64,000 bases of DNA from CAVPRW01 sp046727435 [NCBI: bacterium] (lineage in GTDB: Bacteria > Tectomicrobia > Entotheonellia > J063), in contig JBKPCR010000099.1 in the NCBI GenBank assembly GCA_046727435.1, positions 8,132 to 72,131 on the forward strand, read 5' to 3'. This document shows positions 2,610 to 57,141 of this stretch, piece after piece (within the stretch, counting starts at the first letter, position 1; every line of letters begins with the position of its first letter). Position numbers and translations under genes: made by a program. Under the pieces are notes generated by a model. That model ran no database searches. It saw nothing but the letters and a program-made list of their open reading frames with translations, and had not been told where the DNA came from.

Positions 2610-3128
2610 CGCGTGGTGTGCCTTGAAAGTCACCGCTTGCTTGCCGGTGTAAGTCCGGCCGTGGTAATTACCGGAGAGCCACGTAGCAGGCGCCCAGTGC
2701 TCTTGGAGGACCGAGGGTGCTGAAGCGGCGTGTCCCTCTGAGAAAGAGGAGCAAACCAGCAGTCCGTAACATCAAGTGAATCCTGCAGCGCCGTGATGTT
2801 AACCCGCAAGGGACAAGGGAGAGCCGAGCCTATTACGCGAGGCGAAGGCCAGGGAAGGGGTGAAGAATCCGGAAGCGCAGCCCCGAAGAACTCTCCGGCG
2901 TAGGGCGAACGGAATGCTGGGACAGGAAACGGTGGAACAAGGGAGACCTCAAGCAGTCAGTGGCCCACATCCGCTGTAACCCCTGGTATAAGACACCAGT
3001 CGAAGTCCAAGGGAATGCTGTTTGAGGAGTCGGAGGAGGTCATAGTACTGTCGATCAGCGAGACAACAGAACTCGCTGGGAGGGAAGGACCTCTGCTTCA
3101 ACCAAGCTCAGCGAGGGGGTAAGTGACG

Positions 3129-8406: not shown

Positions 8407-8425
8407 ATGCAAGTCCTTCTTTCAT
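8393..8425 (-). promoter_or_regulatory. Possible 10-residue leader ORF overlapping the oxidase start
   Basis: The upstream repeat copy provides GAAGGA and an ATG at 8425 that opens MKEGLAYEKR and stops at TAA (8393-8395), in a different frame, 11 bases inside the main gene. Translation of this leader would pass over the main start and could lower or couple its expression. The arrangement is seen in the sequence; the regulatory role is inferred. Confidence 0.4.
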
Positions 8426-11192: not shown

Positions 11193-12359
11193 TCAATGCA
11201 TGGCGGAAGATCGCGTGATTTCTGTGATCAGCTCATCAAACCTCTGCAAATTCTTTTCCCAACAAAAATTTTGCTCAATAAATTGCTTGGCGTTCTTCCG
11301 AAGCCTTTCTCTCAGGCTTGCATCGTTGAGTAGTCTGATGGTGGCTGCGGCAAAATCTTCTGGGTCGTCCGCCATGAGAATTTCTTGGCCGGGCACCGCG
11401 TTAATGCCTCGATTCGCCATGGAGGTGGCGACCACGGGAACTCCCATAGCCATTGCTTCAAGGATCTTGTTTTGGACGCCCATGGCTACACGTAAGGGCA
11501 CCACGCAGACAGCGGCTTTGGAGAGATAGGCGCGGATATCCGGCACGAAACCTGTCACAGTCGTATGGCGATCGGCCAGTTTTCGAATTTGCGCGGTCGG
11601 ATGCATGCCCGCGATGATAAACTGGGCAGCTGGAATCTCACGTTTAATTAACGGGAAAATATAGCGGTGAAAATGCAGGACGGCGTCAGTGTTGGGAAAG
11701 TAATTCATCACGCCAGTAAAGATGATCGAGCCGTCATTGGGAGTATTGTCTGTGGAGAAATACTGTTGATCGACCCCATTTGGGAGGACGGTGATACGAG
11801 AACTATTGTCAAGCAGGGACTTCTCATGCTGAGAGGTTACCAAGCAGTGGTCAAATTGTTTAGAGAGGAACTGTTCAAAGCGAAAAAGCCTGCGAGACTC
11901 CGTCCGGTAAATCATCGAATAAGGAAAGGGAGCCATCGAAGAGAGATGTTCCCATTTCTTTGAATCAATGTCAACGTAATCAAGAATTTTCGGTGAAGAT
12001 ATATTGAGAGCATATTGAGCCATAGTTGAGCAATCGGCAAGTACTACATCTGGAGAAAGTCTTTGCACCACCTTTGCTAACACTCCTGAATAAAAATATG
12101 CAACGGATAATGGATAATTCGAAAAAAGAGATGTAAGACAAGATAAATAGGAAACAACGGTCTTATATTTAATTGGAAAAATGGATTCGCAGTATTGCCT
12201 CAGATGTTCTTGGCATGCATAATGTTCAGCACTAAATACTGGGTATACAAGCGTCAGATCATAATTCTTGGAGAGATGTTTGAGGAGATTATAACAGCGG
12301 ATACGATCGCCTCGATTTGGCGGATATGGACATGTATGGGCCAGATACAGTATTTTCAT
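11193..12359 (-). CDS. Sugar transferase, TIGR03087-like (exosortase-system associated)
   Basis: This 388-residue GT-B enzyme starts MKILYLAHTCPYPPNRGDRI, the typical opening of glycosyltransferases in exosortase/PEP-CTERM EPS loci (TIGR03087). Further motifs are LDYVDIDSKKWEHLS, ITVLPNGVDQQYFS, IIFTGVMNYFPNTDAVLHF and ILEAMAMGVPVVATSMANRG. The ATG at 12359 was chosen because family alignment starts there; an upstream in-frame start at 12428 would add 23 residues unlike the family. It stands first in a two-gene minus-strand unit with the GT4 gene at 10054 and is divergent from the plus-strand gene at 12642. Base composition is AT-rich. Confidence 0.9.
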   Translation of the reverse strand: MKILYLAHTCPYPPNRGDRIRCYNLLKHLSKNYDLTLVYPVFSAEHYACQEHLRQYCESIFPIKYKTVVSYLSCLTSLFSNYPLSVAYFYSGVLAKVVQRLSPDVVLADCSTMAQYALNISSPKILDYVDIDSKKWEHLSSMAPFPYSMIYRTESRRLFRFEQFLSKQFDHCLVTSQHEKSLLDNSSRITVLPNGVDQQYFSTDNTPNDGSIIFTGVMNYFPNTDAVLHFHRYIFPLIKREIPAAQFIIAGMHPTAQIRKLADRHTTVTGFVPDIRAYLSKAAVCVVPLRVAMGVQNKILEAMAMGVPVVATSMANRGINAVPGQEILMADDPEDFAAATIRLLNDASLRERLRKNAKQFIEQNFCWEKNLQRFDELITEITRSSAMH

Positions 12360-12519
12360 AAAGTACCCATGAATGAGGGCGTCCCAGGCTGAACGCAAGA
12401 TTGTCAAGATGTGCATTGCGTCCGCCACAAGGTTATGGGGGTCCGATCGAACTGATCGGACGTGTTCAGTGCCGCGATCACCGCATTATAACAAGAGTGG
12501 CATTGCGATGCAGAGATTT

Positions 12520-12549: not shown

Positions 12550-12641
12550 TACCCTAAATCTCAGAGACACCGAGGGTGATCAGGTGTTATTATCAGTTTT
12601 GCAAGGTACCCTTCGCGGCGATGGCTTTCAGAGGTGGCGGC

Positions 12642-15242
12642 ATGCTGTGCTCGCTTATCATCACAGAAGAGAGTGGAATCGCTCGCTTTGACGAGCCGGT
12701 AATTTTGGGCCTTCCATTTCCGCGCGGCGTGCTATCGCAGACCCAGCGATTATCGCTGATCGCTGACCGACAACAGCAACGACTGCCGTTGCAGGTGGAG
12801 GTGCTCGATCGCTGGATTGACGGTAGTGTCAGATGGGCACTGTTGGATTTCCAGGCCACTGTCGCGGCCGGCCAGACCATGGAATACCACCTCCGGTCCG
12901 CGCCTGATTCCCCGCCAGTCCAAGATTCACAGGTTTCTCTGGTGCAGGCTCAGGACGCCTGGACGATCGATACCGGTGTGGCCCGCTTCACGTTGAATAC
13001 CCACACGCTCAGGCTCTTTGATGAAGTGGTCAGCGGGGGGGCGGTGATCGGCGAGGTTGCGGGGAGCCAGATTGTGCTCACCGACGCGGAAGGCCAGACA
13101 TACGAGCCGAAAATCGATCGCATCGCGGTGGAGGCTTCTGGACCGCTCAGGCTTTCCCTCGACATACATGGGAAATTGATCTCTCCAGGCCGGGAACCTC
13201 TGGCAGAATACAGTGCCCGTTTGAGCTTCTATGCCGGAAGCGGCGTGGTTGAACTGAAGTTGACCATTCATAATCCCAGAGCCGCCAAACACCCGGGCGG
13301 TGTCTGGGACCTTGGCGATCCCGGATCGATCTACTTCAAAGACCTCTCTCTGCACACCGCTTTGCGCACAGACAGGGCTGCCGCCATGTGGACCGCCCAG
13401 CCGCAAGAGCCCTTTGTTGCGGTCGCGGGTGCAGCGGTAGAGATCTATCAAGACTCCAGCGGTGGGACGAACTGGCAGAGTACCAATCACGTCAATGCCG
13501 ATGGTCGGGTCATGCAGCGGTTTCAGGGATATCGCGTGCAGGTCGGTGAGATGACGGTCGCGGCGGGGAAGCGCGCCGCCCCGACTATCCTCGTCTATGA
13601 TCCCAGTGATCACCGGAGTATCGCCGGTGCTGTAGAGGGATTCTGGCAAAATTTTCCGAAGGCGCTTGAGGTCCATGGCAATCGACTAACCATTGGGGTG
13701 TTCCCACGCCAGTCCGCCGATGTCTATGAGCTACAGGGGGGTGAACAAAAGACACATACGCTGTTTTTAACATTCGGCCAGCATCGGCACCACGCCGCAG
13801 GGCTGACCTGGGTGCATGATCGATTGGTGCCACGCGCGCAGCCTGAATGGTATGCGCAGTCTAAGGCCATCAGTTATCTCATACCGCAAGCTCGGGATGA
13901 CCATCGCGACTGCCTGGCCCTCATCGATACCGCCATCGCCGGGCCGAACTCGTTCTTCGAGCGGCGAGAGATCAGCGATGAATACGGCTGGCGTCATTTT
14001 GGAGACCTCTATGCCGATCACGAAGCTGTCGGCCATCAGAGGGCATTTCCGCTTATCTCGCATTACAACAATCAATACGATGCCATCTATGGGATGCTGA
14101 TCCAGTATCTCAGAAGCGGCGACGTGCGCTGGTTCCACCTCATGCGCGATTTGGCAAGACATGTCATCGATATCGATATCTACCATACACAGGAAGACCG
14201 TCCAGACTACAACGGTGGTCTGTTCTGGCATACAGATCATTACGTCGATGCGGCCACCGCCAGCCACCGCAGCTATTCACAGGCCAATCGGGAGACGCAG
14301 GGAGGGTGTCGCTATGGCGGAGGGCCGTCGAACGAACACAACTACACCACCGGTTTGCTCTACTATTACTTTATAACTGGCGACATCGGCGCACGTGAAG
14401 CCGTTCGCAGCCTCGCCGATTGGGTCATCAAGATGGATCAGGGCTGGCGAGCGCTTCTGAGTTGGTTCGACAGACGTCCAACTGGCCTGGCCAGTGCCAC
14501 AACGAGTCGGCAATACCATGGCCCCGGGCGCGGAGCTGGGAATTCTATCAATGCGCTGATCGATGCCTACCTGCTGACTCGTGAGGAGCGGTATCTGACC
14601 ACAGCTGAGGTGCTAATCCGTCGGTGCATTCATCCCGCCGACAATATTCAGGCGAGAAATCTGCACGATGTGGAACATCGCTGGTCCTATACGGTCTTCT
14701 TGCAGGCCCTCGGTAAGTATCTGGACGTGAAGATCGAGCAGAATTCCCTCGATTTCATGTACGGCTATGGTCGGGAGAGTTTGCTCCACTATACTCGCTG
14801 GATGCTTGAGCATGAAGTGCCCTATGCCACGGTCTTAGATCGGGTCGAGATTCCGACAGAAACATGGCCGGCACAGGACATCAGGAAAACGAATGTCTTC
14901 GATGTTGCGGCGAAGCATGCCGATGAACCGCTCCACACAGCCTTTCGTCAGAAAGCCGATTTCTTCTTCCACGCTTGTATCCGCGATTTGCGGTCGTTCG
15001 ACACCTGCACCCTAACCCGCCCACTTGTGTTACTCATAACCAACGCGTTTCGGCATACATACTTCCAGCTCCACCCAGATGAGCTCGCTCCCCGCCCCGA
15101 CCAGCCGTATGATTATGGGAAACCGGAGCACTTCACCCCGCAGCTCGCTGAGCTCTATCAGGCTAAAGAATGGCTGATCGCGCTGTCACAAACGGCGAAG
15201 CACCTCGGCCGGTGCCTTATTAGACCATACGGGAACGGTTAA
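12642..15242 (+). CDS. PcRGLX/YetA-like polysaccharide-active protein
   Basis: The protein of 866 residues starts with a beta-rich domain containing ARFDEPVILGLPFPRGVL and DGSVRWALLDFQATVAAGQT. These match the N-terminal RIFT-barrel domain of the PcRGLX/YetA family, named after a rhamnogalacturonan exolyase. The centre, rich in His, Tyr and Trp (NEHNYTTGLLYYYF, GPGRGAGNSINALIDAYLL), looks like an alpha/alpha-toroid of polysaccharide lyases and glycosidases. No signal peptide is visible, so it may act in the cytoplasm or be released. The start at 12642 has AGGTGG upstream; an in-frame GTG at 12576 would add 22 residues. A role in cutting or trimming a polysaccharide is inferred; catalytic residues were not identified. 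Confidence 0.65.
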   Translation: MLCSLIITEESGIARFDEPVILGLPFPRGVLSQTQRLSLIADRQQQRLPLQVEVLDRWIDGSVRWALLDFQATVAAGQTMEYHLRSAPDSPPVQDSQVSLVQAQDAWTIDTGVARFTLNTHTLRLFDEVVSGGAVIGEVAGSQIVLTDAEGQTYEPKIDRIAVEASGPLRLSLDIHGKLISPGREPLAEYSARLSFYAGSGVVELKLTIHNPRAAKHPGGVWDLGDPGSIYFKDLSLHTALRTDRAAAMWTAQPQEPFVAVAGAAVEIYQDSSGGTNWQSTNHVNADGRVMQRFQGYRVQVGEMTVAAGKRAAPTILVYDPSDHRSIAGAVEGFWQNFPKALEVHGNRLTIGVFPRQSADVYELQGGEQKTHTLFLTFGQHRHHAAGLTWVHDRLVPRAQPEWYAQSKAISYLIPQARDDHRDCLALIDTAIAGPNSFFERREISDEYGWRHFGDLYADHEAVGHQRAFPLISHYNNQYDAIYGMLIQYLRSGDVRWFHLMRDLARHVIDIDIYHTQEDRPDYNGGLFWHTDHYVDAATASHRSYSQANRETQGGCRYGGGPSNEHNYTTGLLYYYFITGDIGAREAVRSLADWVIKMDQGWRALLSWFDRRPTGLASATTSRQYHGPGRGAGNSINALIDAYLLTREERYLTTAEVLIRRCIHPADNIQARNLHDVEHRWSYTVFLQALGKYLDVKIEQNSLDFMYGYGRESLLHYTRWMLEHEVPYATVLDRVEIPTETWPAQDIRKTNVFDVAAKHADEPLHTAFRQKADFFFHACIRDLRSFDTCTLTRPLVLLITNAFRHTYFQLHPDELAPRPDQPYDYGKPEHFTPQLAELYQAKEWLIALSQTAKHLGRCLIRPYGNG

Positions 15243-20351: not shown

Positions 20352-20441
20352 CTACCTGCTTCTGGCAAAACCAGGTAGAGTCTACCTGACGTCCTCGGCT
20401 CGTGGCGCGGCGCAATCTGCGCCCCGACCGAGGTGTAGACT
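20352..20441. terminator. Bidirectional terminator between convergent genes
   Basis: Two hairpins fill the 129-base gap between the plus-strand gene ending at 20311 and the minus-strand gene ending at 20441. The first pairs CTACCTG (20352-20358) with CAGGTAG (20372-20378). The second is nested: AGTCTAC (20379-20385) with GTAGACT (20435-20441) and CCTCGG (20393-20398) with CCGAGG (20428-20433), plus an inner GGCGC/GCGCC pair. It even overlaps the end of the minus-strand stop codon region. Confidence 0.6.
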
Positions 20442-21781
20442 TATGTGGTCTTCGCACAGGAGGGCGCTATGTTGGGTAGGGGAAAAGAGGAGGAAGGAAG
20501 ATCGATGGTTGGAGGGCTCGGGGCTTTGATGGCCCCAAAGGCGGCTCGATGGGCCACTTGATCGACAATGAATGAAAGGAAAATATAGTGCCAGAACATT
20601 TCATTGTATTGAAAAGGGAGAAAACTACCACCAACAAGGTAGACGCAAAGCCCCGATCGCAGAGCTATAGCTGTGGATTCAAGGTGTATAAGCTCGGGAT
20701 GACCTGAAACCAGCTTAGATACGCGGGAACAGGAGCGGAATGCGCAGAGGAGAATCAAAGCATACAAGGCGAGGCCTAGAAATCCTAACTCCGCGGTAAT
20801 ACCTAGCGGAGAGCTATGCACAGAGCGCATGCGTCCGTACCTACCTTGGGAAAAGTCGTAGGTGTCGTAGGCCTGATTGTAAGCGTTGAAACCGATGCCG
20901 AAGAAGGGATGAGCTTGGGCCATAACAAGGGCTACTTGCCAGAAGTGAAGACGGCCCAGAGCAGATTCGTCCTCTTCTTCTTCATACGTTTGGATGGTAT
21001 TCATTCGATTCCAGAACGCCTCGGGTAACGTTGCGACGATGATCATCATGACTATTAATAGAGCCATCAAGTTGCGGAATTTGTAGCGAGATTGTAACCA
21101 ATAAATCACTGCCAGAGCGATGCAAGCGACAAAGCCTCCACGGGAATAGGTCGATAGGGCCCGATAGAACACCCCGATGAGCAGGGCCCAATAAGCTGGA
21201 CGTACCCACTTCCACGCTGTTGATTGAGCGAGCAAGCCGACGACGGGCACCAGCATCAGCATTCCGACAGCAACGCCATTATTGTCGCCGAGGAATGGTA
21301 GCGGATTGACGTTTGGCGATCCTGGTGACGTAAGCAGAGCAAACCATCCTTGTCTGGCGCCCTCAAGACCTAGCGACAAGGCAATCACGAGCAGCGTCAG
21401 GCGCAGTTTCGAAAAATCGTCGATAAGAATAAGCATTAGATAACCTATAATATTTATCTTTAAGAATTCTTTCCAAAAAGGCCAACTATATTCATAATAG
21501 GATGATACCCATATAGAAAAAAATGTCTGTACTAGAAAAATGAAAATAAGTACAGTACGAGTGTTTAGAACAAATTTTTTTCTGGATAGTAATGTTATAA
21601 TTATTGTGTAGAATCCAATGAAATAGGAAAGGTTGATACGTTGTAGAGAATTGTCCCAGAGCCAAATTTCTGGCCTGAAATATGCGTTCCACAAATAGAA
21701 GAGGAGTGCATAAAATGGCCCTTGCAAGGCATAGTACGTGCCAATGATTATCATACTAAAAGCAATAATGGGACGGAGCAT
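20441..21781 (-). CDS. O-antigen-ligase-like membrane protein (TIGR03097-like)
   Basis: The 446-residue protein is very hydrophobic with about ten membrane segments. It starts MLRPIIAFSMIIIGTYYALQ and carries the sequence LPFLGDNNGVAVGMLMLVPV, then YSRGGFVACIALAVIYWL, and a periplasmic loop with GRLHFWQVALVMAQAHPFFG and SVHSSPLGITAELGFLGL. This pattern (DUF5935 plus Wzy_C) is that of the ligases linked to exosortase A loci (TIGR03097), which are proposed to transfer polysaccharide onto an acceptor. It is the last gene of the long minus-strand EPS block. The 5' half is AT-rich, unlike its neighbours. Whether it acts as polymerase or ligase cannot be told from sequence. Confidence 0.85.
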   Translation of the reverse strand: MLRPIIAFSMIIIGTYYALQGPFYALLFYLWNAYFRPEIWLWDNSLQRINLSYFIGFYTIIITLLSRKKFVLNTRTVLIFIFLVQTFFSIWVSSYYEYSWPFWKEFLKINIIGYLMLILIDDFSKLRLTLLVIALSLGLEGARQGWFALLTSPGSPNVNPLPFLGDNNGVAVGMLMLVPVVGLLAQSTAWKWVRPAYWALLIGVFYRALSTYSRGGFVACIALAVIYWLQSRYKFRNLMALLIVMMIIVATLPEAFWNRMNTIQTYEEEEDESALGRLHFWQVALVMAQAHPFFGIGFNAYNQAYDTYDFSQGRYGRMRSVHSSPLGITAELGFLGLALYALILLCAFRSCSRVSKLVSGHPELIHLESTAIALRSGLCVYLVGGSFLPFQYNEMFWHYIFLSFIVDQVAHRAAFGAIKAPSPPTIDLPSSSFPLPNIAPSCAKTT

Positions 21782-21964: not shown

Positions 21965-23032
21965 CTACTGAGTAAGATATTTTCGAACATGAGGACCAAG
22001 CCATCGTGTCACATGCAGAGGGAGATATCTCCAGAGTTGCGCCAGTAGAACGGCTTTCGGGTCCGCGCCCGATAGCCTTAGGCATTGGGGGGCCACGGTC
22101 GGGATCGTGTACCAAAATAACGGCTCCTCAACGGCGCCCCACTGACGCTTGAACCGGTAGGTTCCCGAGTTGCGGCTTGAGCGCCCGAAATCGAACCGCA
22201 GGAAACCCTCAAGACAAGCGCTGCGGAGCACCTCCCAATAGAGGAGCATGTTAGGACATAGAGGAAGGTATTGGCGTAGCGAAGAGGCCCACGGGACAAT
22301 CAGGGAGTTTTTGAACGCCAAAGCGATCAACCCGCCGATGGGTTGTGCATCTTTGCGTACGAGCACGACGCGGGCACAGTCACCGAAGGCTTCGAGGATA
22401 GCCTGAAAAAATCCCCGGGCGTGTACAGGCGATCCAAGATCGCGCATGTTCTGGGCGAAGATCTCATAAAAGCCATCTAACCTATTGGATTGTCCGAACT
22501 CCACCGACAGGCCCGAGCGTTCCGCCTTGCGCACTTGATTGCGCACCTTGGCGTCGAGCTGATTCCAGAGGCGCCCTGGATCCTTGGGAAGCGACCGAAA
22601 GAGGTTCACCTTATCGCCGGTGGCTGCGACCGGCAGGTCCAGCGGCACAGTGCAGCGCAGCTCAACCAGCCTCGCTCCATGGTGTGCAGCTTCTTCTATC
22701 AAGCGTGTCAGGAGCATGCGGCTGAGAGCCGGTGAGGAACTACAAGGGCCTCCCGTGTCAAGGAATGGCATCGACGTTACCACTGTCCCGAATAGACGGC
22801 TGCGGACGAGGAACGCCGGCAGGATAGCCATCTGCCCTGTACTATTCTCAGCCTGCAGGTATAGAGGAGTATGGCCATAGGCCCTATGGATGGCTGCGTA
22901 CCACCGCGGCGACTGTGCCACGTTGGCATCGTCCATCTGATGAATGAGAGTAGACCACTCACCCTCCACATCAGGTTGGCAGCAGAGAACCTGAACCGTA
23001 GAATTGGGTGACTGCAAAGTTTTGAAGTTCAT
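21965..23032 (-). CDS. FemAB-like protein, exosortase-system type (TIGR03019-like)
   Basis: This 355-residue protein belongs to the GNAT-fold FemAB group. Characteristic parts are MDDANVAQSPRWYAAIHRAY, VRNQVRKAERSGLSVEFG, DLGSPVHARGFFQAILEAFG and LRFDFGRSSRNSGTYRFKRQ WGA. In XrtA-type EPS loci such proteins are standard members and are thought to add an amino-acid or acyl group to the polymer or a peptide acceptor. The ATG at 23032 has GGAG nine bases upstream; a GTG at 23053, directly after the TAG of the preceding gene, is an alternative. It follows the glycosyltransferase at 23054 without a gap and is likely translated with it. Confidence 0.85.
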   Translation of the reverse strand: MNFKTLQSPNSTVQVLCCQPDVEGEWSTLIHQMDDANVAQSPRWYAAIHRAYGHTPLYLQAENSTGQMAILPAFLVRSRLFGTVVTSMPFLDTGGPCSSSPALSRMLLTRLIEEAAHHGARLVELRCTVPLDLPVAATGDKVNLFRSLPKDPGRLWNQLDAKVRNQVRKAERSGLSVEFGQSNRLDGFYEIFAQNMRDLGSPVHARGFFQAILEAFGDCARVVLVRKDAQPIGGLIALAFKNSLIVPWASSLRQYLPLCPNMLLYWEVLRSACLEGFLRFDFGRSSRNSGTYRFKRQWGAVEEPLFWYTIPTVAPQCLRLSGADPKAVLLAQLWRYLPLHVTRWLGPHVRKYLTQ

Positions 23033-23053
23033 AATAAAGGTCTCCACGGGCAC

Positions 23054-24409: not shown

Positions 24410-25486
24410 TCAGATAAGTTCTTGCTCTACGCGGCGCTGGCCGGCCTTGTGGTGCTGATTGATGAGTTTCCAGAGCGCGTCCCGCAGCTTTGTGGGCTGG
24501 AGCCAGCGCATGACCACCACGGAGACAATTGCGAGGCCTGGATAGAGAATAAGCATGAGGAGGCCGATACGCGGCCAATAGCTGGGAATCACATAGCGCA
24601 GCGGCGGCTGCAGCGCGAATAGCAGGGGCATATGCGCAATAAAGATGAATAACGAATGACGGGCGAAGAACGCAACTATAGCATAAGCAGGGAGACGCCT
24701 GGCAACCTCGAAGACGAGCCAGGTATAGGCAACGTAGAGGAAGGTGACACATGCAGAACGCGTCAGCACCATGGCCGAGCCAGCCATACCAATAAAATTC
24801 CGGAAGGGGAATGCCTCATCGAGAACAACCTGGCGCATGCCAAGAGTCCAGGCGATGAGCAAAGTCGCTAGGCTTAACAGGTACATGGGCAGGGCCGCGT
24901 CGTTTGCCTTCTGCTCTCGGTCGCGCATGTACATACCTAACAGGAACACTGTGGCCCAATTCGGAAGCATCATATACGTGCGGAAGAGGGCTCCGCTGTC
25001 CAGCATTACGGCTCGAAGAATGATTTCTCCCAGTGCGACAATGCCAACCATCCAGAGCCGAACGCGCACTTTGTGAAGCACCAGCGCCCAGAGCAGGACC
25101 ACATGTATATAAGTGCCGATATACCAGGTCGTCGGATTGGCCGGGAAGTAGTCCAGCAGAACATTGATCCCAAGGAAGAAGGGGAGATAGTTGCTTTCGT
25201 TTAAGTCACGCTGCGTCACGAAGAGGATTGCACTCATCACCATGGCAAAGCCGAGACCCACGAGAATGACCGGAAATAACCTATTGTAGACGACTTGAAA
25301 GCGATGCCGCGATTCGCGTGCCAATCCCCATCCGATGACGAAGATGAAGAACGCCACACCGAGCTGCTTGGCATAGATTGGTGGGGTCAGGTACATAATT
25401 GAACCGGTGGCGACGTGTCCCAAGACAATTAGGAACATGCCCAGGCTCTTCATCCAATCGATGAAATGGATATGTGGACGATCCAT
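24410..25486 (-). CDS. Acyltransferase 3 family membrane protein
   Basis: The 358-residue protein starts MDRPHIHFIDWMKSLGMFLI at 25486, with AGGAG nine bases upstream. It has about ten membrane segments. The N-terminal helix carries the family's basic residue and His in DWMKSLGMFLIVLGHVATGS, where the His is thought to be catalytic. Acyltransferase 3 enzymes (OafA, WecH type) O-acylate surface polysaccharides, usually moving acetyl from the cytoplasm to the periplasmic glycan. Here it stands at the end of a unit that also encodes an ACP, a reductase and an acyl-activating enzyme, so it may use a longer or modified acyl group. Gap to the preceding hexapeptide gene is 25 bases. Confidence 0.88.
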   Translation of the reverse strand: MDRPHIHFIDWMKSLGMFLIVLGHVATGSIMYLTPPIYAKQLGVAFFIFVIGWGLARESRHRFQVVYNRLFPVILVGLGFAMVMSAILFVTQRDLNESNYLPFFLGINVLLDYFPANPTTWYIGTYIHVVLLWALVLHKVRVRLWMVGIVALGEIILRAVMLDSGALFRTYMMLPNWATVFLLGMYMRDREQKANDAALPMYLLSLATLLIAWTLGMRQVVLDEAFPFRNFIGMAGSAMVLTRSACVTFLYVAYTWLVFEVARRLPAYAIVAFFARHSLFIFIAHMPLLFALQPPLRYVIPSYWPRIGLLMLILYPGLAIVSVVVMRWLQPTKLRDALWKLINQHHKAGQRRVEQELI

Positions 25487-25511
25487 GCTAGTCTGCTCCT
25501 GAGCCACCAGT

Positions 25512-26144
25512 TCAGCCCTGACTCTGCGTCTGCAGCTCGTCTCTGAGTTGTCGGACGAATCGACTTGGGTTGCCCGCCAGCAGAATCCCAGCCCGTGCAT
25601 CCTGCTCAACAACCGCCCCGGCCGCCACCATGGTCCCTGCCCCAACATTGGCCATGACGATGGCGCCCTCTCCGATCCATGCGTAGTCCCCGATTTTGAT
25701 CTGGTGCAGTCGCGTCTTGTCGCAGGGGCCCCAGCGACCCTGCTCGTCCAGTTCGTGTAAGGCAGTGCCACTGAGGAGACTTGCTCGGCTGCCGATCAGA
25801 CACCCTTCACCGAGATGAGTCGAGCCCACCAAGGCGTATGCCCCGATGTAAGCGTTCTGCTCTACAACAGCACAACGATGCGTGAAGAGCGCGCCAAAGC
25901 CAATGTAGAAATTGGACGCACAGCGGTCCAAGGTCAAGCGGTAGTATGCACGGCGCAGAAACACTCCCGGTACCCCAGGGAAGACGGAGAATATGTGGGC
26001 CCAGAACAGAAACATGGATTCCGAGCCGTCAGTGATGCGCTCCTCGAGCCAACAACTGAAGGCGCACGGTGACACCAGCGCCAGACATACGCCATTCATG
26101 AGCGTTTTGATAGTTATCCGAATCTTGGGCAATCGTTTCTTCAT
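25512..26144 (-). CDS. Left-handed beta-helix (hexapeptide) acyltransferase
   Basis: The 210-residue protein has an N-terminal hydrophobic part (TLMNGVCLALVSPCAFSCWL) and then hexapeptide repeats such as VVEQNAYIGAYALVGSTHLG, IKIGDYAWIGEGAIVMANVG and GTMVAAGAVVEQDARAGILL, ending AGNPSRFVRQL. Enzymes with this fold acylate sugars or amino groups from CoA or ACP donors. The hydrophobic start suggests membrane contact, as in some colanic-acid or capsule acetyltransferases. It has GGAG seven bases before the ATG and follows the ANL ligase gene after 56 bases. Partner of the acyl module; exact acceptor unknown. Confidence 0.85.
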   Translation of the reverse strand: MKKRLPKIRITIKTLMNGVCLALVSPCAFSCWLEERITDGSESMFLFWAHIFSVFPGVPGVFLRRAYYRLTLDRCASNFYIGFGALFTHRCAVVEQNAYIGAYALVGSTHLGEGCLIGSRASLLSGTALHELDEQGRWGPCDKTRLHQIKIGDYAWIGEGAIVMANVGAGTMVAAGAVVEQDARAGILLAGNPSRFVRQLRDELQTQSQG

Positions 26145-26200
26145 AACAATTCTCCGTGGATGGTGAAAGCCCTGCTACTCTCAGACCTTTCCTCGCGGCG

Positions 26201-27553
26201 TTACAAGGCCTGACTGGCTGCCCGACGCATTCGCTTGAATCGTTCAGTATGCAGAGGTTCGTTGGTGAAGCGCACCCGCGTCGGAATTTGGTATGGCGCG
26301 AGCCGGTCCTTACAGAAACGGCGCATCCGTATCTTGAATTGCGCCGCCGACTCCTCGCGTTGTAATTTGATGGTCGCCGCCACCATATGACCAGTGAGCG
26401 GGTTGGGCTCGGCATACACCACTGCGTCTTGCACATTGTCCAATGTCAGTAAAACGCTCTCGACTTCCGCAGGGAAAACTTTGCTGCCACCGACGTTAAT
26501 GATCTCACTTGCCCGACCAAGGATGCGCAGCCATTCGCCATCGACTTCGACCACGTCGCCGGTGTCGAAATAGCCTTGCTCATCCAACGAGCTTGCGGCA
26601 TTGAGGTAGCCCAGCATCGCCGACTCAGCTTTGATCCACAGCCGATTGTCGATGACTTTCATCTGGTACCCTTCCCCGCCGAGTCGCACCCACCGCGACG
26701 TCGAGTCGCGTGATTGCGATCGGAGAATGCCCAACTCGGACAGGCCGTAGGTCTGCTGCAGCGTCACCGCCGGAAAGACTTGAGCTACCCAGTCTAACGT
26801 GCTCTGTGGCATAGGCTCAGTGCCATAGGTAATCAGCCGCAATGATGATAAGTCGTATGCCTTGTCCGCACCGGAAAGGAGCAAGAAATTAAGGAACGTT
26901 GGTGACGTCGGCAACAGTTCCACACGGTGCTGCTGGATGGCCTGACACACTCCGCTCGGACTTCGATCCGCCGCCACGACCGCCATACCGCCATTCGATA
27001 AGGTATAAAAAAGCGTGTTGATGCCACCGATATGATCGAGTCCGAGAAAGAGCAGTGTGCGCCATCGGCGTCGTGGTTGTTGAAACTTCTTCAGTAACAG
27101 ATGTAGATCATGCACCACTGCCTTGTTTTTCCCCGTTGAGCCGGATGAAAACAGCACCAGCCCTGGGGCTTCGCGCTGTTGGAGTAAATCATATAACGGC
27201 TGTTGTGCATGTCGCCCAGTTGACTCGATTGTCGGGGTGGTACCAGCCAGGCGGATGTAATATTCGACCTGAGCAATGTCACAGAACTCATCATGATGCG
27301 ACTGGGCTTCTCGCGACAGCGGCACGATGATGGTGCGACGTTGCATCAAAGCGAGCAGCAGGGAAAGCGTCTGGGCACTGTAGTGGCCGTCTATGCCCAC
27401 CACAGTGCCGGGGCTGAGGAGGGCCTGGCCAAGATGATCCTGCCAGGCTCGAACGTGGTCCCACAGGCTTTGGTAGGTCATGACAGTGATGTCGGAGGCG
27501 AGGGCCTCGCAGTCTGCATGCGCCCGCATCGTCTCCAGTAGAAACGTCATCAT
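26201..27553 (-). CDS. ANL-family acyl-AMP ligase
   Basis: The 450-residue enzyme would activate a carboxylic acid as an acyl-adenylate and load it onto CoA or, more likely here, onto the neighbouring ACP. Core motifs are visible: the P-loop LVLFSSGSTGKNKAVVHD, LQQTYGLSELG, GYFDTGDVVEVDGEWLRILG, GRASEIINVGGSKVFPAEVE and the C-terminal Lys region HTERFKRMRR. It is shorter than the usual 500-550 residues, mainly in the N-terminal half. The gene overlaps the SDR stop codon by four bases (ATGA), so the two are translationally coupled. Related ligases occur in exosortase A loci (TIGR03098), but this one lacks the usual decarboxylase and hydrolase neighbours. Confidence 0.88.
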   Translation of the reverse strand: MMTFLLETMRAHADCEALASDITVMTYQSLWDHVRAWQDHLGQALLSPGTVVGIDGHYSAQTLSLLLALMQRRTIIVPLSREAQSHHDEFCDIAQVEYYIRLAGTTPTIESTGRHAQQPLYDLLQQREAPGLVLFSSGSTGKNKAVVHDLHLLLKKFQQPRRRWRTLLFLGLDHIGGINTLFYTLSNGGMAVVAADRSPSGVCQAIQQHRVELLPTSPTFLNFLLLSGADKAYDLSSLRLITYGTEPMPQSTLDWVAQVFPAVTLQQTYGLSELGILRSQSRDSTSRWVRLGGEGYQMKVIDNRLWIKAESAMLGYLNAASSLDEQGYFDTGDVVEVDGEWLRILGRASEIINVGGSKVFPAEVESVLLTLDNVQDAVVYAEPNPLTGHMVAATIKLQREESAAQFKIRMRRFCKDRLAPYQIPTRVRFTNEPLHTERFKRMRRAASQAL

Positions 27554-28263
27554 CCTAGTCCTCCCAGATAGATGACCTGTCCGGTGATCATCTGGCTTTC
27601 AGGATGGAGAAAGAAATCGATGATATGCGCCACATCGCTGGGTTGAGCCATACGCCTGATGGCTTGCTGTTCCACGAGGTGGCGAATCTTCTCTGCCCCC
27701 ACACCTTTGAGCAGATCTGTATCGATCGGGGTTGGGCCGACGGCATTACAGGTGATGCCGAAGGCACCCAACTCCCGGGCTGCTATGCGGGTTAGGGTTT
27801 CAATGGCGCTTTTTGAGGCAGCGTAGATTGCCTCGCCCGCCAACCGCAATGGCACCGCGACACTAGACATGTTGACAATGCGCGGTGCAGGGGATTTACG
27901 CAGCAGGCGAATCGCCGCTTGGCTCAGCAGGAACGTGCCCAGAAAGTTTGTTTCCATGATACGGCGTGCCACCTCCACTGGCGTCAGCGCGATCGGATTC
28001 ATATTGGCGACGCCGGCATTGTTGATCAGCGCATCTAGGCCGCCCACGTCCCGTTGCACGTCATGTAACAGTGTCTGCACGGCGTGCGCATCCGTCACAT
28101 CGACACGATAATGGCGATACCCCTCATGGCTAATGAGGCGTTCCGACGCTTCAGTGCGCGCGCAACCGATGACGAAGTCACCCTGGTCAAGGTAGTGACC
28201 CGCCAGATAGCATCCCAGTCCTCGGCTGGCACCCGTGATGAGGATGTGACGTCTCCTGCTCAT
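27550..28263 (-). CDS. SDR-family reductase (FabG-like)
   Basis: A 237-residue short-chain dehydrogenase with the NAD(P)-binding TGASRGLGCYLAGHYL, the NNAG motif in LINNAGVANMNP, the catalytic Ser in NMSSVAVPLRL and Tyr/Lys in YAASKSAIE. FabG-type enzymes reduce 3-oxoacyl groups on ACP. The position between an ACP gene (3 bases upstream) and an acyl-AMP ligase (4-base overlap) supports a job on an ACP-bound acyl chain, although a sugar substrate cannot be excluded. It should be cytoplasmic. Confidence 0.88.
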   Translation of the reverse strand: MSRRRHILITGASRGLGCYLAGHYLDQGDFVIGCARTEASERLISHEGYRHYRVDVTDAHAVQTLLHDVQRDVGGLDALINNAGVANMNPIALTPVEVARRIMETNFLGTFLLSQAAIRLLRKSPAPRIVNMSSVAVPLRLAGEAIYAASKSAIETLTRIAARELGAFGITCNAVGPTPIDTDLLKGVGAEKIRHLVEQQAIRRMAQPSDVAHIIDFFLHPESQMITGQVIYLGGLG

Positions 28264-28266
28264 CGC

Positions 28267-28557
28267 TCAGCTGGCCAGACGATCTTCGATGAAGGCCACC
28301 AGGGACGGCACATCTTTGAAAGGACTCCGTGCACGCGACATCGCCCGCTCGTTTGTTAGGATAATGTTGTAGCCCGCTTCCCCAAGGGCCTCCTCGATGT
28401 CGATAATGAGGGCGACGAGGCCCATGGAGTCAAGTTGACCATCATTGCCAAACAACGGGGCATCGGGCGAGACGGTTAACTGTTGGTTGTCCTCGCGCGC
28501 CTGATTGGCCATACGTAGCGCGTCAAGAATAATTGTTTGAATCTGACTACAATCCAC
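28267..28557 (-). CDS. Acyl carrier protein
   Basis: The 96-residue protein has the phosphopantetheine attachment motif DSMGL in NDGQLDSMGLVALIIDIEEA, and the helical acidic character of ACPs. The start is GTG at 28557, with AAGGAG eight bases upstream; a nearby ATG at 28563 is in another frame. It heads the acyl module and would carry the acyl group through reduction to its transfer onto the polysaccharide. It lies 124 bases downstream of the asparagine-synthase-like gene, the only sizeable gap in this part of the locus, so an internal promoter is possible. Confidence 0.88.
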   Translation of the reverse strand: MDCSQIQTIILDALRMANQAREDNQQLTVSPDAPLFGNDGQLDSMGLVALIIDIEEALGEAGYNIILTNERAMSRARSPFKDVPSLVAFIEDRLAS

Positions 28558-28681: not shown

Positions 28682-30622
28682 TCAGCCTACGGAGAGGGGA
28701 GAACTGCTTATTGCAGGCCTCTTTTGTGTGAGGCCTTCGCCATCGATGAAGGTTCGATGCCAGAGTTCCAGTATCAACAAATCCCAGAGGTACTTCGCGT
28801 GATCTGCTTCCCCACGACAATGGGCCTCGAGCAACTTCGCGATTGCCTCGGACTGAAAATACCCCCGCTGCAGAGCACGCGGGGTGAGGAGGACGTCGTG
28901 CGCCATCTCCCGTAATTCCTTGCGGAACCAGCGCGCCAGGGGGACACAGAAACCCATTTTAGGTCGCTTCAAGACAGCCTCTGGAAGCTCATCACGGAAC
29001 GCAGCCTTCAGCACACGCTTCTGCTGCCTACCTGTGAGCTTCAAGCATGCTGGTAAACTTGCGACAAATTCCATCAGCTCATGGTCGAGGAAGGGTGATC
29101 GAGCCTCCAGAGAGTGAGCCATCGTCGCCCGATCGATTTTGACCAACAGATCCTCGGGGAGAAACAGGTTGACATCTGTGTCGAGCATTGTATCAACCCA
29201 TTCCTCGGTGTCACTCCGAGCAAAAGCCTCTCCAAATAATCCTTCTGGATTGCTCTCTATGACCTGTGCGCCAAATGATGAGGTATATAACCGCTGTCGC
29301 GCCTCTGGGGAGAAGTGTTCCATCCAGTAGGCATAGCGGCATGCTGGTGACAAGGCGAGTAACTCTGTCAAATGTGTGATCTTGCGTAACAGTCGGTGCT
29401 GCCTCCTGACCGACGACAGGCCTCGCCCCCACGAAGCAATCCATTGCCGCAGCCACAATGGGATGACCTCTCCTCGTCGCACTAATAGATCTTTGACGTA
29501 CCACTCATACCCTGCAAAGTTCTCATCCCCCCCATCGCCATTGAGAACCACTGTGACATGCTGGCTGGTGAGCTCGGCAATCGCGTAGCTCGGCACCGCC
29601 GAGGTATCCCCAAATGGCTCGTCGTAATGCCAGACAAGACGTGGGAGAATATCGGTCACTGGAGCCTTTACTACCAGCTCTGTATGAATAGTCCCAAAGC
29701 GTTCTGCTACCAGTCGGGCATATGGGCGCTCATCAAATGACGCATCCTCAAATCCCACCGAAAACGTCCGCACCGGATGTCCCATTTCTTGTGCCATGGC
29801 GGCCACGACAGCGCTTGAGTCAACACCACCACTGAGGAATGCCCCAAGCGGGACATCGCTGACCAGGCGGAGACGGACGGCCTCGGCAAAACGCCAGCGT
29901 AATTCGGCTACAGCCTCTGGCAGGGTGATCTGGCGTTTGGGGGTGTATTGGAGTTTCCAGTAACGCCCTATCTCTAAGTGACCATCGCGGACTTCAAGCC
30001 AGTGAGCTGGAGGAAGTTTTCGTATGCCCCGAAAAGCCGTCAGCGGCGCTGGGATATATTGCAAGGCGAGGAAATGATCCAGGGCCACCGGATCGGGTTC
30101 AGCCGGAATAGTGTGATCAGCGAGCAGCGCCTTGATCTCGGACCCAAACAGAAAGCAATCGCGGCCGAGATAATAAAATAGGGGTTTCTTTCCTACCCGA
30201 TCACGCGCCAAGAATAAAAGACGCTGGCGCGCATCCCAGATGGCGAAGGCGAACATGCCGCGTAACCGCTCGACACACGTGCGACCATACTCCTCATAGG
30301 CATGGACGATGACTTCAGTATCACTCTGGGTGCGGAAAATGTGCCCTTTGGCTTGGAGTGCTTGACGCAGCTCCTGGAAGTTGTAGATCTCGCCATTGAA
30401 CGTAATCCAGATGGTGCCGTCTTCATTGCACATTGGCTGATCGGCCACAGCACGTAGGTCGATAATCGCCAGACGGCGATGGGCCAGCCCCACATGTTGA
30501 GCTGCCCAGACCCCGTCACCGTCGGGGCCACGATGGCTGAGGGCCGTGGCCATCTGTTGCAGTTCCTTGGGGTCGACGGTGCGTGTCTGGTCGAAATAGA
30601 GCTTTCCACAAATACCGCACAT
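28682..30622 (-). CDS. asnB: Asparagine synthase-like glutamine amidotransferase
   Basis: The 646-residue protein has the N-terminal glutaminase domain with Cys2 as nucleophile (MCGICGKLYF), the SHRGPDGDG and FNGEIYNFQELR motifs, and the synthetase domain with the ATP-binding LSGGVDSSAVVAAMAQE. Length and layout fit class B asparagine synthases. Close relatives belong to exosortase A EPS loci (amidotransferase 1 type), where they are thought to amidate uronic acids or an amino-acid decoration rather than make asparagine. In this locus an amidated diacetamido-uronic acid would fit with the WbpB/WbpD-E genes. The substrate is inferred, not shown. Confidence 0.9.
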   Translation of the reverse strand: MCGICGKLYFDQTRTVDPKELQQMATALSHRGPDGDGVWAAQHVGLAHRRLAIIDLRAVADQPMCNEDGTIWITFNGEIYNFQELRQALQAKGHIFRTQSDTEVIVHAYEEYGRTCVERLRGMFAFAIWDARQRLLFLARDRVGKKPLFYYLGRDCFLFGSEIKALLADHTIPAEPDPVALDHFLALQYIPAPLTAFRGIRKLPPAHWLEVRDGHLEIGRYWKLQYTPKRQITLPEAVAELRWRFAEAVRLRLVSDVPLGAFLSGGVDSSAVVAAMAQEMGHPVRTFSVGFEDASFDERPYARLVAERFGTIHTELVVKAPVTDILPRLVWHYDEPFGDTSAVPSYAIAELTSQHVTVVLNGDGGDENFAGYEWYVKDLLVRRGEVIPLWLRQWIASWGRGLSSVRRQHRLLRKITHLTELLALSPACRYAYWMEHFSPEARQRLYTSSFGAQVIESNPEGLFGEAFARSDTEEWVDTMLDTDVNLFLPEDLLVKIDRATMAHSLEARSPFLDHELMEFVASLPACLKLTGRQQKRVLKAAFRDELPEAVLKRPKMGFCVPLARWFRKELREMAHDVLLTPRALQRGYFQSEAIAKLLEAHCRGEADHAKYLWDLLILELWHRTFIDGEGLTQKRPAISSSPLSVG

Positions 30623-37311: not shown

Positions 37312-38700
37312 TTACATAGCTCCCGGGTTGTAAGTAAGGGTGAGGTTGTGGAGGACTGGGGTTTGTCCAGGAATCGTGGTGATCAGCTGGGCCTGATACT
37401 GAATGTAGCGCGTGCTACCGCCGATCGTCGCCCCCGAGCTTGACAGAGGGGTGAACGGGGTCCACGTCCCATCCGGGATCGGCGTGGTGCCCTGGCGCAC
37501 GCTGATGCGGAGACTCGTGCCACTGGGCACGGTACTCGTCCAGCTGGCTGTGCCCCAGCTCACCAGTGCCCCCGCATTGAACACCTGGGAGGTGAAGATG
37601 CCCGATGTGGCATAGGGGGTCATGCGCAACCAGTCCACCACCACCGTGCCGCCCCCCGCCGTGGCGTCGCTGACCAAGGGCCGCATGGGGGTCGTACTGG
37701 CACGCGCGTGGGTGGCCACCACGGTGCCGTCGACCGAATAGACCACGTTCGTCGCATTCCAGTCGATGCGGAAGCGATGCGGGGCACCCAGCCGGCCGCT
37801 GCCCAGCGGCGTACTAGTTGTGGTCGACCCGAACCGGGTCTGGGCGAGGAGGTTGCCGCCCTGGGTGGTGAACCTCGCCCAAGGCGCGATGCTAAAGTCA
37901 GTGCCGAAGCCAACGTTCTGGTTCGCCGCGCCGCTGAAGGTGGCCACGAATTCGAGCGAGCGGCCGGCTCCGAACGTGGCCGTGGTGCCGGCACGCGCGC
38001 CATCGATGGTGAGCATGCCGTTGGCGACCGTGGCGGTGCCGGAGAAGGCGGTCCAGCCGCTGGGTAGGGCGGTGCCATCGAACTCGGTCCGGATGGTCGG
38101 GGCTAGGAGCACTTCGCCGTCAGCGGTCTGGCCGATGTAGGTGCCAGCCTCGGGCGTGCCGGTACGGAAGTCGACGACTGTGGTATCCAGGAAGGTTCCG
38201 GGCGGTAAGGATGGGGTGAACACGACATCGACCCAGTAGTTGCTGGCATTGAAGGTTTGGGTGGGGAAGGCGCTGCTGGCACTATAGATATAGACGCCGT
38301 TGCCGCCCGCCTCGCCATCGGCCAGGGCCCGTAGCGGGCCGTTGGTGAAGGCGGTGCCAAAGTAGGGCTCGTTGAGGGCGTAGTGCCCCGTGTCGGTGTG
38401 GTAGGAGGCGACGTAGATGATGCCGGCTTTGATGGGGACGGGGCTGGCGAAGCTGGCCTGCTGCCAGCCCGAGGCCGTCTCGCCGCTGAAAGTGACGCTG
38501 GTCAGCGGTATGCCGGCGGCCGTCCACAGGGTGCCCACATGTACCCCGGTGTTGGTCGTGCCCTTGTAGAAGCGCAGGCCGGTGATGTAGCCATCGCTCT
38601 GGGCTTGGAACTTCACGCCGACCTCCACCCGCTTCGCATCGTTATCGGCCGCCACCGCCGGCACCGTCGCATCGCTCCACAAACTACACGGACACGCCGC
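37312..38700 (-). repeat. Internal duplication, copy B (DUF4082 plus concanavalin-like module)
   Basis: DUF4082 copy 4 and the module from [10 protein letters not shown] to [15 protein letters not shown] form the C-terminus of the giant protein and mirror copy A. The two further DUF4082 copies lie at about 43535-44016 and 38995-39483. Confidence 0.8.
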
Positions 38701-41700
38701 CGACGCCGAGATGGTGAAGGTTTGGGTATTGGAGGTGCCACCACCTGGGGCTGGGTTGAAGACCGTCACCGCAGCAGTCCCGGTTGCGGCGATGTCTGCA
38801 GCCGCAATCGCGGCCGTCAGCTGTGTTGCGGAGACAAATGTCGTCGGCCGATTTGCCTCATTCCAGCGGACCACCGAGTTGGTGACAAAATTCGTCCCGT
38901 TCACCGTCAGTGTAAACGCTGCTCCGCCCGCTATCGCCGAATTTGGCGCGAGGCCGCTCGTTGTCGGCACGGGGTTATTGGATGGCGGCGCCTGGGTGGT
39001 GAACACGACATCGACCCAGTAGTTGCTTGAGTTAAAGGTCTGGCTGGGGAAGGCGCTCGCGCCATAGACAAAGAGGCCGTTGCCACCCTCCTCGCCATTG
39101 GCCAGTGCCCGCAGCGGCGGATTACTGACGCCTGAGCTCGCAAAGTATGCCCCATCGAACGCGTAATTCCCCGCGGTGGTGTGATACGACGCAACATAGG
39201 TAGTGTTGGTGGTGATCGCCACCGGCGCAGATAGGGTGACCTGCTGCCAGCCGGAGGCAGTCTCATTGGTGAAGGTAGCGCTTGCCAGCAGGGTCCCGCT
39301 GCTGGTCCAAAGATTGCCCACATGCGTACCCGTATTACTCGCCCCCTTGTAGAAGCGCAGCCCCGTGATGAAGCCATTCACGGTTGACTGGAACTTCACT
39401 CCGAGCTCGACGGCATTCGGATCGTTCGCCGACGCCACTGTCGGGGTCGTGGCGTTACTCCACAGGCTGCACGGACATGCAAGCGGTGTGGTGGTGAATG
39501 AGGAGGTGACGTTGGCCAAAGCATTGCCAGCCTGATCCTTGGCGCCGGTGATGGTCATCGTATAGGTCGTCCCGAACGCCAGCGTGTCAATTGGATTTAC
39601 GGTAGCAGTATGCGTCGCAGCGTTATAGGTGACGGTGACGGGCACGAGGGTGCCATTGGCATCCCGGAGCTCGATGGTACTTGTATTGATCGTCGCCGGA
39701 TCCATCGCCTCGCTAAAGGTGATGGTGAAGCTGGCTGCGGGATCGACATTGGTCGCGCCGTTCGGCACGGAGGTCGAGCCGACCGTTGGCGGCGTCGTAT
39801 CGGGTGCATAGGTGGCTTGATAGGTGCCCACGGTGGCTGCAAAGAAGGCATAGTCGATACCTTTAACGACCTGTGTTGAGTAGGACACCGAGGCGCCATT
39901 CCGTGTGATACCAGTCAGTGCACCAGCGGCAACCGTTGTCGGCAACATGGCCTGGATGCCATTCGTGCCCGAGCCCGGAGTTATGGTGAAGCTCAGGGTA
40001 TTCCCATTCCAGGCCAGTGACCCAAACGACGAGCTATCGCGGCCGTCCAGCCAGGTCAACATTTGTCGGGCGGAGACCACGGGCACGCCGCGAGCCTGCG
40101 CCGAGGCGATGATTGCATCCGATCCGCTTGAGGACACGGAGTCCGTGTGCATGTTGGCGGTGAAGGCACCGTAATAGCCCTCAGTGCCGATTGCTTTGTC
40201 CAAAAGCGCATTGATTGTAAAGGGGTATGTCTGGCCGGACTCGTCGGTCATCTGCGTCGTCGCTTGATAGATATCGATCATGGTGCCGTCCAGAAGCGCA
40301 AAGCGCATCGGCATACCAGAGCCGGTAAAGAACCCTGGACGGTCAGCGAGCCAACTGGGCGGCCAGTAGTAGTAGTTCGTGTCAAGACGAATGCCGTGGG
40401 CCAGCTCGACCTGAGGCTGGGTCATGTAGTCACTCCACACGATGCAGTGCGTCCGGTTGGTCGTGGGGGCTGGGACGCTCGGGAAGGTCGAAGCGAACGT
40501 GGCGAGCTGGTCGCTATAGAATGATTCAAGCGACGAAGGTGTCGTCCAGTTATCGCATCCAGTGGTGACGTGTAGGCCCACCTCGAAGCCCTGGGCGACG
40601 TAGGAGGCGGCCTGTGCATCCGTCAGTGGAGTGGTTGGATAGATGTACGAGGTGCTGCGGATACACTCCCAGTCGGCGACCAAGCAACCTGCTGGGCTAT
40701 TCGCTTTGTATTGGTCAAAGCGGCCAGCGGTACCACCATTCGCATGATCGTCGCCGGTCATGATGACGACGGCCTTTTTGCCGTGAGGGAAGTACCAAAA
40801 GCGCGGCAGCGGCTTTTTGTCGCGGTTCATGGACAGGATGAGATTTGCCAGCAGGCGCTGCTGCTCATCCGCCTGTGGGATCGCAACCTTGTTCAGGTCG
40901 ACCCAGTCTGGCTGAGGGTCACCGGAGGCGTTTCCGAAGAACATGTCGTCGGAACGCCTCGGTGGGAAGCCATCGCGCTCTTGTCCAGCCCAGTCGGTAT
41001 TGCCCTGCCGCATGTCGACGACCGAGAGCGCCAGGTCGTATGTGAAGGCGGCTGCTTGACCTCCGTTCGTGCCAACGCTGCGTAGCGTGACAGCTGGGTT
41101 CGCGGTCGCCGTGCTGGCATTCGAGTAGAGCGTGGCGAGACGTGAGGCGCCGCTGAGTGTGTAGCGATCGGCGATGCCACGGTATTGAATGGTCTGGCTT
41201 ACGATCCCCGCGCCGGGCCCCGTCGAGGTGTCCACCAGGAGGTAGGCATTCGCCAGTATCGACGACGTATCGGTCAGCCCGAGCAGGCTGGCGAGTTGCT
41301 TGTCCGGGCGCATGGCGATCAATTTTCCGCCAGCGTTGACCCAATCACTGAACATTGTAACCTGGGCGGGTGTGAGCGATAGCGGGCCGAGAATGACCAC
41401 GTCATAAGCAGCCAGCGTTGGTGTCGAGACCGCAGAGATGTCGCTGACATCGAAGGCGTTGAAGCCTTCGGTACGTAGAATCTCGGCGTAATAGCGACTG
41501 AAGGGGTTTGATGCGCCAGCAACGACTAAGATCGGTCCACCCGGCCCCTGGTCGGGCGCGGACGCTGCAGAGGGGGCCGCTGCGGCCAACGACGAGGGGC
41601 CGTCGGCGCTTAGTGTGTTGGCTGTTAGTGTGTTGCCTGACGGATCCTGCACGCCATCGGCGCCGCCTTTGAGCGTAGTCGCTAAGGTTCCCATCTGCGC

Positions 41701-57119: not shown

Positions 57120-57141
57120 GGGGCTACCTGTCAGGAATGGT

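Follow-up and report, generated by a model that had tools for sequence, protein, structure and literature searches.

A conserved five-gene acyl carrier protein module tied by co-occurrence to one type of exosortase-A exopolysaccharide

Acyl groups influence how viscous and adhesive an exopolysaccharide (EPS) is and how well it withstands enzymes, and little is known of the chemistry of exosortase-linked EPS. The mupirocin/thiomarinol paper "A priming cassette generates hydroxylated acyl starter units" is said to describe a succinyl-CoA/4-hydroxybutyryl route with a bis-thioester. The MupQ-MupS-MacpD set of mupirocin, as given in an excerpt of PMC10098928, makes a 3-hydroxypropionate starter from malonyl-CoA, carried on MacpD. 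Short hydroxyacyl groups are also reported on surface sugars: a paper title places 4-hydroxybutanoyl Qui3N in the polysaccharide of Idiomarina abyssalis KMM 227, and 3-hydroxybutyryl QuiNAc4N is predicted for Acinetobacter K loci in an excerpt of the source that treats them. Here, a related arrangement is described in the window, a stretch of 64,000 nucleotides from contig JBKPCR010000099.1 (assembly GCA_046727435.1). As in the MupQ-MupS-MacpD set and the set of the thiomarinol plasmid pTML1, an acyl-AMP ligase, a short-chain dehydrogenase/reductase (SDR) and an acyl carrier protein (ACP) lie side by side. On the minus strand of the window, the ACP, SDR and ligase genes are followed consecutively by those of a hexapeptide transferase (HEX) and a membrane acyltransferase 3 (AT3). 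This five-gene module is real and conserved, and co-occurrence ties it to one type of exosortase-A (XrtA) EPS; it is probably a portable set for ACP-dependent polysaccharide decoration. The five genes are as follows.

28267-28557, minus strand: probable ACP, 96 amino acids, GTG start, with Ser44 in the motif D-S-M-G
27550-28263, minus strand: SDR reductase, 237 amino acids; Pfam adh_short_C2, 4e-47
26201-27553, minus strand: acyl-AMP ligase, 450 amino acids; Pfam AMP-binding, 6.8e-32, plus the C-terminal domain
25512-26144, minus strand: HEX, hexapeptide (left-handed beta-helix) transferase, 210 amino acids; Pfam Hexapep, 1.2e-11
24410-25486, minus strand: AT3, membrane acyltransferase 3, 358 amino acids from ATG; Pfam Acyl_transf_3, 4.5e-15

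Pfam backs four of these proteins, namely SDR, ligase, HEX and AT3. The coordinates of the open reading frames (ORFs) confirm the row of five genes given in a preliminary description of this DNA, with a gap of 3 bases between ACP and SDR and an overlap of 4 bases between SDR and ligase. The gaps between ligase and HEX and between HEX and AT3 are 56 and 25 bases, respectively. The AT3 coordinates assume the ATG start, and the frame itself stays open as far as 25771.

A scan with a ligase alignment matched at least 591 stretches, 549 of which were confirmed; the best 80 and six plasmid loci form a sample of 86 loci, 85 with a ligase. Since the sample consists of the ligases nearest to that of the window, its shares are not natural frequencies. 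ACP, SDR and ligase are all present in 72 of the 85 loci and stand contiguously in this order in 65, AT3 is present in 20, and the full order ACP-SDR-ligase-HEX-AT3 is found in 15, distributed over Acidobacteriota, Pseudomonadota, Thermodesulfobacteriota and Planctomycetota. The genes of these loci are mechanical ORFs taken longest first; the unlabelled neighbours are approximations, some frames in L104, L007 and L008 are spurious or too long, and contig ends truncate L012, L025, L038 and L054. The five-gene row is not due to chance, because 15 of the 85 related loci carry the same order, and the module is self-contained and conserved as the preliminary description had proposed; the refutation named there, an order that occurs nowhere else, fails.

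The five proteins also diverge together. Their pairwise distances, uncorrected for genome kinship, correlate at 0.60-0.90 over 18 loci and the window (19 rows). The ligase tree was built by a quick method with support from the Shimodaira-Hasegawa-like approximate likelihood ratio test (SH-aLRT) only, and it carries a long-branch warning; one branch of SH-aLRT 100 parts 62 rows from 24. The 24-row side contains the window, 19 of the 20 AT3 loci, L003, L005, L012 and L038, and the 62-row side contains a single AT3 locus, L070; AT3 requires five changes on this tree. Each of the five families is common singly, and they might be accidental neighbours with no joint function. This is highly improbable: the order is kept in four phyla, also outside polysaccharide surroundings, and both the correlated divergence and the split of the ligase tree contradict it.

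A Chloroflexi version of the triad (L022, L027, L031, L047 and kin) has ACP-SDR-ligase followed by a conserved protein in 17 loci. This protein has 485-555 amino acids in those seen, and the one scanned had no Pfam match. Frequent neighbours are a hexapeptide-like protein and a gene resembling that of UDP-GlcNAc 2-epimerase. The ligase of L040, labelled Candidatus Parcubacteria, falls among Chloroflexus sequences, perhaps through a binning error.

Co-occurrence was assessed in 28 genomes, each with the whole or part of the module. Exosortase (PF09721) is present in 27 of them (14/14, 5/5 and 8/9), a point in favour of the preliminary description. A PcRGLX-like gene at 12576-15242, which that description did not link to the module, also co-occurs with it, and with the window protein as query at E 1e-10 it is matched in 25 of the 28 (13/13 and 12/15). 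For the association tests, which share the lack of kinship correction, AT3 was the module marker; the 13 genomes with AT3 in the first set showed ligase and HEX too, although part of their contigs are cut short, and in split genomes the ligase is found elsewhere than AT3. The family of G001 comprises 246 genomes, 13 with AT3, 180 with an exosortase match (178 over the cut-off) and 51 with PcRGLX. PcRGLX occurs there in 13/13 AT3 genomes versus 38/233 others (Fisher p 3.4e-10), and exosortase in 13/13 versus 167/233 (p 0.015); the exosortase association is weak within this family because 180 of the 246 genomes have a match. Among 247 Acidobacteria genomes, 3 have AT3; PcRGLX (E 1e-60) is found in 7, including those 3 (p 1.4e-5), and an exosortase match in 86, including all 3 (p 0.041). 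The PcRGLX association is stronger than the exosortase association.

The positions of the module relative to the EPS genes suggest a unit that is separable from its EPS surroundings. The Paraglaciecola polaris module (L009) lies amid housekeeping genes, and the four flanking genes scanned, which exclude those directly next to the module, encode a flavodoxin-type reductase, a DUF2333 protein, a dihydrouridine synthase and a mechanosensitive channel; the exosortase is on a different contig. Within the family of P. polaris, G129 has all five module genes together, and its 5.19-Mb contig carries exosortase and PcRGLX at 1.415 and 1.446 Mb, respectively, and AT3 at 4.873 Mb. The module of G129 and of G101 is at least 1 Mb from exosortase and PcRGLX on one contig. 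Such distances would suit an acceptor other than EPS, for instance a lipid carrier, a glycolipid or a PEP-CTERM protein glycan, in cells whose production of XrtA EPS is coincidental. However, such an acceptor is distinctly unlikely, since the PcRGLX-like carbohydrate enzyme co-occurs more strictly than exosortase, and exosortase has module genes no more than about 5 kb away in G002, G009, G245 and G497, the gene concerned being AT3 in G002, G009 and G497.

Other arrangements keep the module close to EPS genes or divide it. L107 contains EpsB, deacetylase, exosortase, HEX, AT3, PcRGLX, ACP and SDR up to the contig end, and the ligase starts another contig. The order in L106 is HEX-AT3-PcRGLX-ACP-SDR-ligase, and one contig of G171 carries PcRGLX, FemAB and AsnB, then the five module genes. 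The Acidobacteria genomes G497 and G435 have ACP-HEX-AT3 together and ligase-SDR about 30 kb off or on another contig, with both parts kept. This suggests that the module consists of two halves, a charging half (ligase-SDR) and a carrier-and-transfer half (ACP-HEX-AT3), and it suggests the ACP as donor for HEX and AT3, because the ACP stays with them in these splits.

The ACP of the window has no Pfam match at 0.001, and its match to DltC is weak (E 8.3e-4; 19.3 bits versus a cut-off of 68). Ser44 is kept in 73/73 aligned rows, these being the window and 72 loci in which the ACP was identified through its resemblance to the window ACP. A second conserved patch lies at the C-terminus, with A72, S74 and P79 each in 73/73 rows and S78 in 72/73. 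In the structural model, based on an alignment of 41 rows (predicted local distance difference test, pLDDT, 91.3), Ser44 begins a long helix, which is also the case in ACPs. A Foldseek search with this model gave no match at E 0.001 or better; the two leading matches, each with probability 0.99, are a chain of complex I (E 0.057) and the ACP 1x3o of Thermus (E 0.09), and comparison with solved structures gave nothing specific. The probable identification as an ACP rests on the invariant Ser44 and the confident helical model. The module also supplies a signature by which to recognise this kind of ACP, which Pfam missed in the window.

The SDR retains Y147 and K151 in 81/82 rows. Among solved SDRs, it scores 89 bits with MupS (4yxf) and up to 128 bits with FabGs. 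Its designation as a FabG-like reductase in the preliminary description does not hold, and FabG was rejected as its identity: it scores 155.5 bits against the NCBIfam FabG equivalog PRK05653.1-3, whose cut-off is 296, and it groups apart from FabG in the SDR tree. That tree, which carries a long-branch warning, covers a subset picked for spread, 38 of the 81 SDR loci including the window, and 7 outside SDRs. Thirty-three module SDRs form one clade (99/98), and five polyketide synthase (PKS)-type SDRs form another (100/99), joined with E. coli FabG and KduD (99/96).

The ligase retains K440, which we take to be the lysine of the last adenylation motif, in 85/86 rows. It is distinct from the known exosortase A-associated acyl-CoA ligase family TIGR03098, as the preliminary description had implied; membership was rejected on score, at 83.8 bits versus a cut-off of 592.35. 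Its ten best plasmid matches have 38-48% identity. These ligases mostly belong to ligase-SDR-ACP sets ahead of PKS genes, including that of pTML1 (39% identity), as judged from the four of the ten records whose gene surroundings were inspected, and the Rhizobium record differs from this pattern. PKS-type ligases are nested inside the family of the window ligase in the ligase tree, where the pTML1 row is on a long branch. The Rhizobium plasmid locus (L003, 7037-12690) consists of an ACP, an unknown gene, an SDR, a ligase of the window's family, an unknown gene and a halogenase annotated CmlS. The ACP and SDR of L003 are nearer to those of the window than are those of three PKS-type sets.

HEX is modelled as a beta-helix with three helices at the N-terminus (pLDDT 92.7), its fold is closest to galactoside and maltose O-acetyltransferases, and H130 is present in 21/21 rows. 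AT3 scores 56 bits against PF01757, for which the gathering cut-off is 31, covering profile positions 1-320 of 326; K13 and H24 are present in 21/21 aligned rows.

The observations are that gene order and residues are conserved, that the proteins diverge in a correlated way and that the module co-occurs with exosortase and PcRGLX. On this basis we favour, on balance, a dedicated acyl-decoration module for one type of XrtA EPS. The reactions, acyl group and acceptor that we infer are the following. The ligase would adenylate a short carboxylate and load it onto the phosphopantetheine of ACP Ser44, and the SDR would reduce the group while it is bound to the ACP, a hydroxyacyl group being the most likely product. 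HEX, with its predicted N-terminal helices and beta-helix, and the membrane protein AT3 would use the acyl-ACP to acylate EPS; the HEX step would probably take place on a cytoplasmic, lipid-linked intermediate and the AT3 step at or across the membrane. The acyl group would be short and is probably a hydroxyacyl, which fits a reductase working on an ACP-bound group.

Judged by its sequence markers, the window locus is of the XrtA EPS type, because five proteins exceed NCBIfam cut-offs. They are listed with two further proteins of the window.

61197-62585, minus strand: XrtA glycosyltransferase of EpsB type, TIGR03013, over cut-off
56274-57194, minus strand: XrtA polysaccharide deacetylase, TIGR03006, over cut-off
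11193-12428, minus strand: XrtA glycosyltransferase, TIGR03087, over cut-off
21965-23053, minus strand: XrtA-associated FemAB protein, TIGR03019, over cut-off
20441-21781, minus strand: O-antigen-ligase-like, exosortase A-associated protein, TIGR03097, over cut-off
28682-30622, minus strand: asparagine-synthase-like amidotransferase, best NCBIfam match TIGR03108 (XrtA), 659.5 bits, under the cut-off of 816.9
12576-15242, plus strand: PcRGLX-like protein, 888 amino acids, with polysaccharide-lyase-like domains

No exosortase was found among the Pfam-scanned ORFs, a subset of those in the window, and the locus may extend further than the window. At 46-52 kb, the window carries sugar-nucleotide genes of PseC, LegB, NeuD and Gfo/Idh type. 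L007, a contig of an Acidobacteria metagenome-assembled genome, has the five module genes and Gfo-, DegT-, LegB-, PseC-, GT2- and APH-like genes in common with the window.

Several other features of the window were recorded. The ORF at 37312-45957 encodes a protein of 2881 amino acids with an N,N-dimethylformamidase beta-like domain, four DUF4082 stretches, Big domains and a choice-of-anchor Z repeat, and that at 5023-8412 encodes a galactose-oxidase-like Kelch protein of 1129 amino acids with LamG and Ig-like domains. A fusion-like ORF at 49002-50642 joins a hexapeptide transferase to a DegT/PseC-type aminotransferase. Near the left end lie a group II intron reverse transcriptase (3123-4421, over cut-off) and an IS5-type transposase match (1788-2609, under cut-off).

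The PseC-, LegB-, NeuD- and Gfo-like genes fit a division of the module into two unrelated jobs, in which ACP-SDR-ligase would make an N-acyl donor for an amino sugar, and HEX and AT3 would be ordinary acetyl-CoA O-acetylases of the same EPS. This division agrees with the triad being usually without AT3 in the 85 loci, with the amino-sugar genes in several AT3-less triad loci, and with the resemblance of HEX to maltose and galactoside O-acetyltransferases. However, none of the window's types of amino-sugar gene was detected next to the L009 module, the ACP of G497 and G435 stays with HEX-AT3 apart from ligase-SDR, and the distances of HEX and AT3 track those of the ligase; two separate jobs are therefore rather unlikely.

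Several points weigh against a dedicated acyl-decoration module for XrtA EPS. Neither the distance correlations nor the association tests are corrected for genome kinship. G564 and G697 have no PcRGLX match, and G701, which shows SDR and ligase only on a 4.1-kb contig (L012), has neither exosortase nor PcRGLX. The Desulfobacterota sample (198 genomes, 2 with AT3 and 5 with PcRGLX at E 1e-60, 1 shared; p 0.05) is uninformative, its 1/2 adding nothing. The exosortase of G171 is on a contig apart from the module and PcRGLX, and L018 has no adjacent same-strand HEX, the HEX on the other strand being possibly unrelated. SDR position 134, presumably the usual catalytic serine position by the spacing of the SDR motif, is Ser in the window and in the 82 rows is Thr in 69 and Ser in 11. 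In addition, the solved relatives of HEX include many O- or N-acetyltransferases that depend on acetyl-CoA, as well as gamma carbonic anhydrases; HEX and AT3 could therefore simply acetylate.

A more detailed version of the favoured decoration module is quite doubtful. An omega-hydroxyacyl group (3-hydroxypropionyl or 4-hydroxybutyryl) would be formed on the module's own ACP by mupirocin-like chemistry, with the SDR and ACP recruited independently, and would pass from ACP to HEX, to AT3 and to EPS in a two-transferase relay. The PcRGLX-like enzyme would be the matching lyase or trimming enzyme of the acylated polymer, and the whole would be an acylation-and-processing system found across phyla and able to act in trans. 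If the general decoration module exists as proposed, a dedicated carrier protein would feed a probably non-acetyl group to XrtA EPS, and a five-gene operon, sometimes far from the EPS locus, would offer a clean genetic handle on EPS acylation.

No description of this gene set was found in the open-licence literature, and the words acyl, ligase and carrier protein are not present in Haft 2006 (PMC1569441). The TIGR03098 ligase resembles the window ligase in being an AMP ligase encoded among XrtA EPS genes, but the window ligase falls far below the cut-off of that family. The short hydroxyacyl groups on the surface sugars of Idiomarina and Acinetobacter, as known from a title and an excerpt, resemble the decoration proposed here; in the Acinetobacter excerpt, however, the acyltransferases act on the amino sugar nucleotide, and that excerpt does not mention an ACP-SDR-ligase-HEX-AT3 set. 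AT3 and hexapeptide carbohydrate acetyltransferases belong to the same families as the module AT3 and HEX, which here are tied to a dedicated ACP.

Compared with the PKS-linked sets, the module is alike in its ligase and different in its partners. Ligases of the MupQ/MupS/MacpD-type sets are of the same family as the window ligase, as judged from the plasmid relatives with 38-48% identity, MupQ itself not being among the sequences compared. The pTML1 cassette has the order ligase-SDR-ACP before a PKS gene, whereas the window has ACP-SDR-ligase, and the annotation of the pTML1 stretch inspected lists no HEX, AT3 or EPS gene; the names TmlQ, TmlS and TacpD were not found in the pTML1 paper PMC3069032. 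The SDR clade of the window differs from the PKS-type clade (33 module versus 5 PKS-type SDRs). The ACPs of L001, L002 and L004 have 13%, 16% and 14% identity to that of the window, are longer and are without its C-terminal motif; a C-terminal extension is a trait of MacpD-type ACPs. The module was thus rejected as a mupirocin-type cassette, its SDR and ACP being in other groups, and the cassette was kept as a functional lead for the ligase. The ligase chemistry of the mupirocin and thiomarinol sets may carry over to this module, with a different pair of reductase and carrier, as the SDR clades are separate and the ACPs share 13-16% identity.

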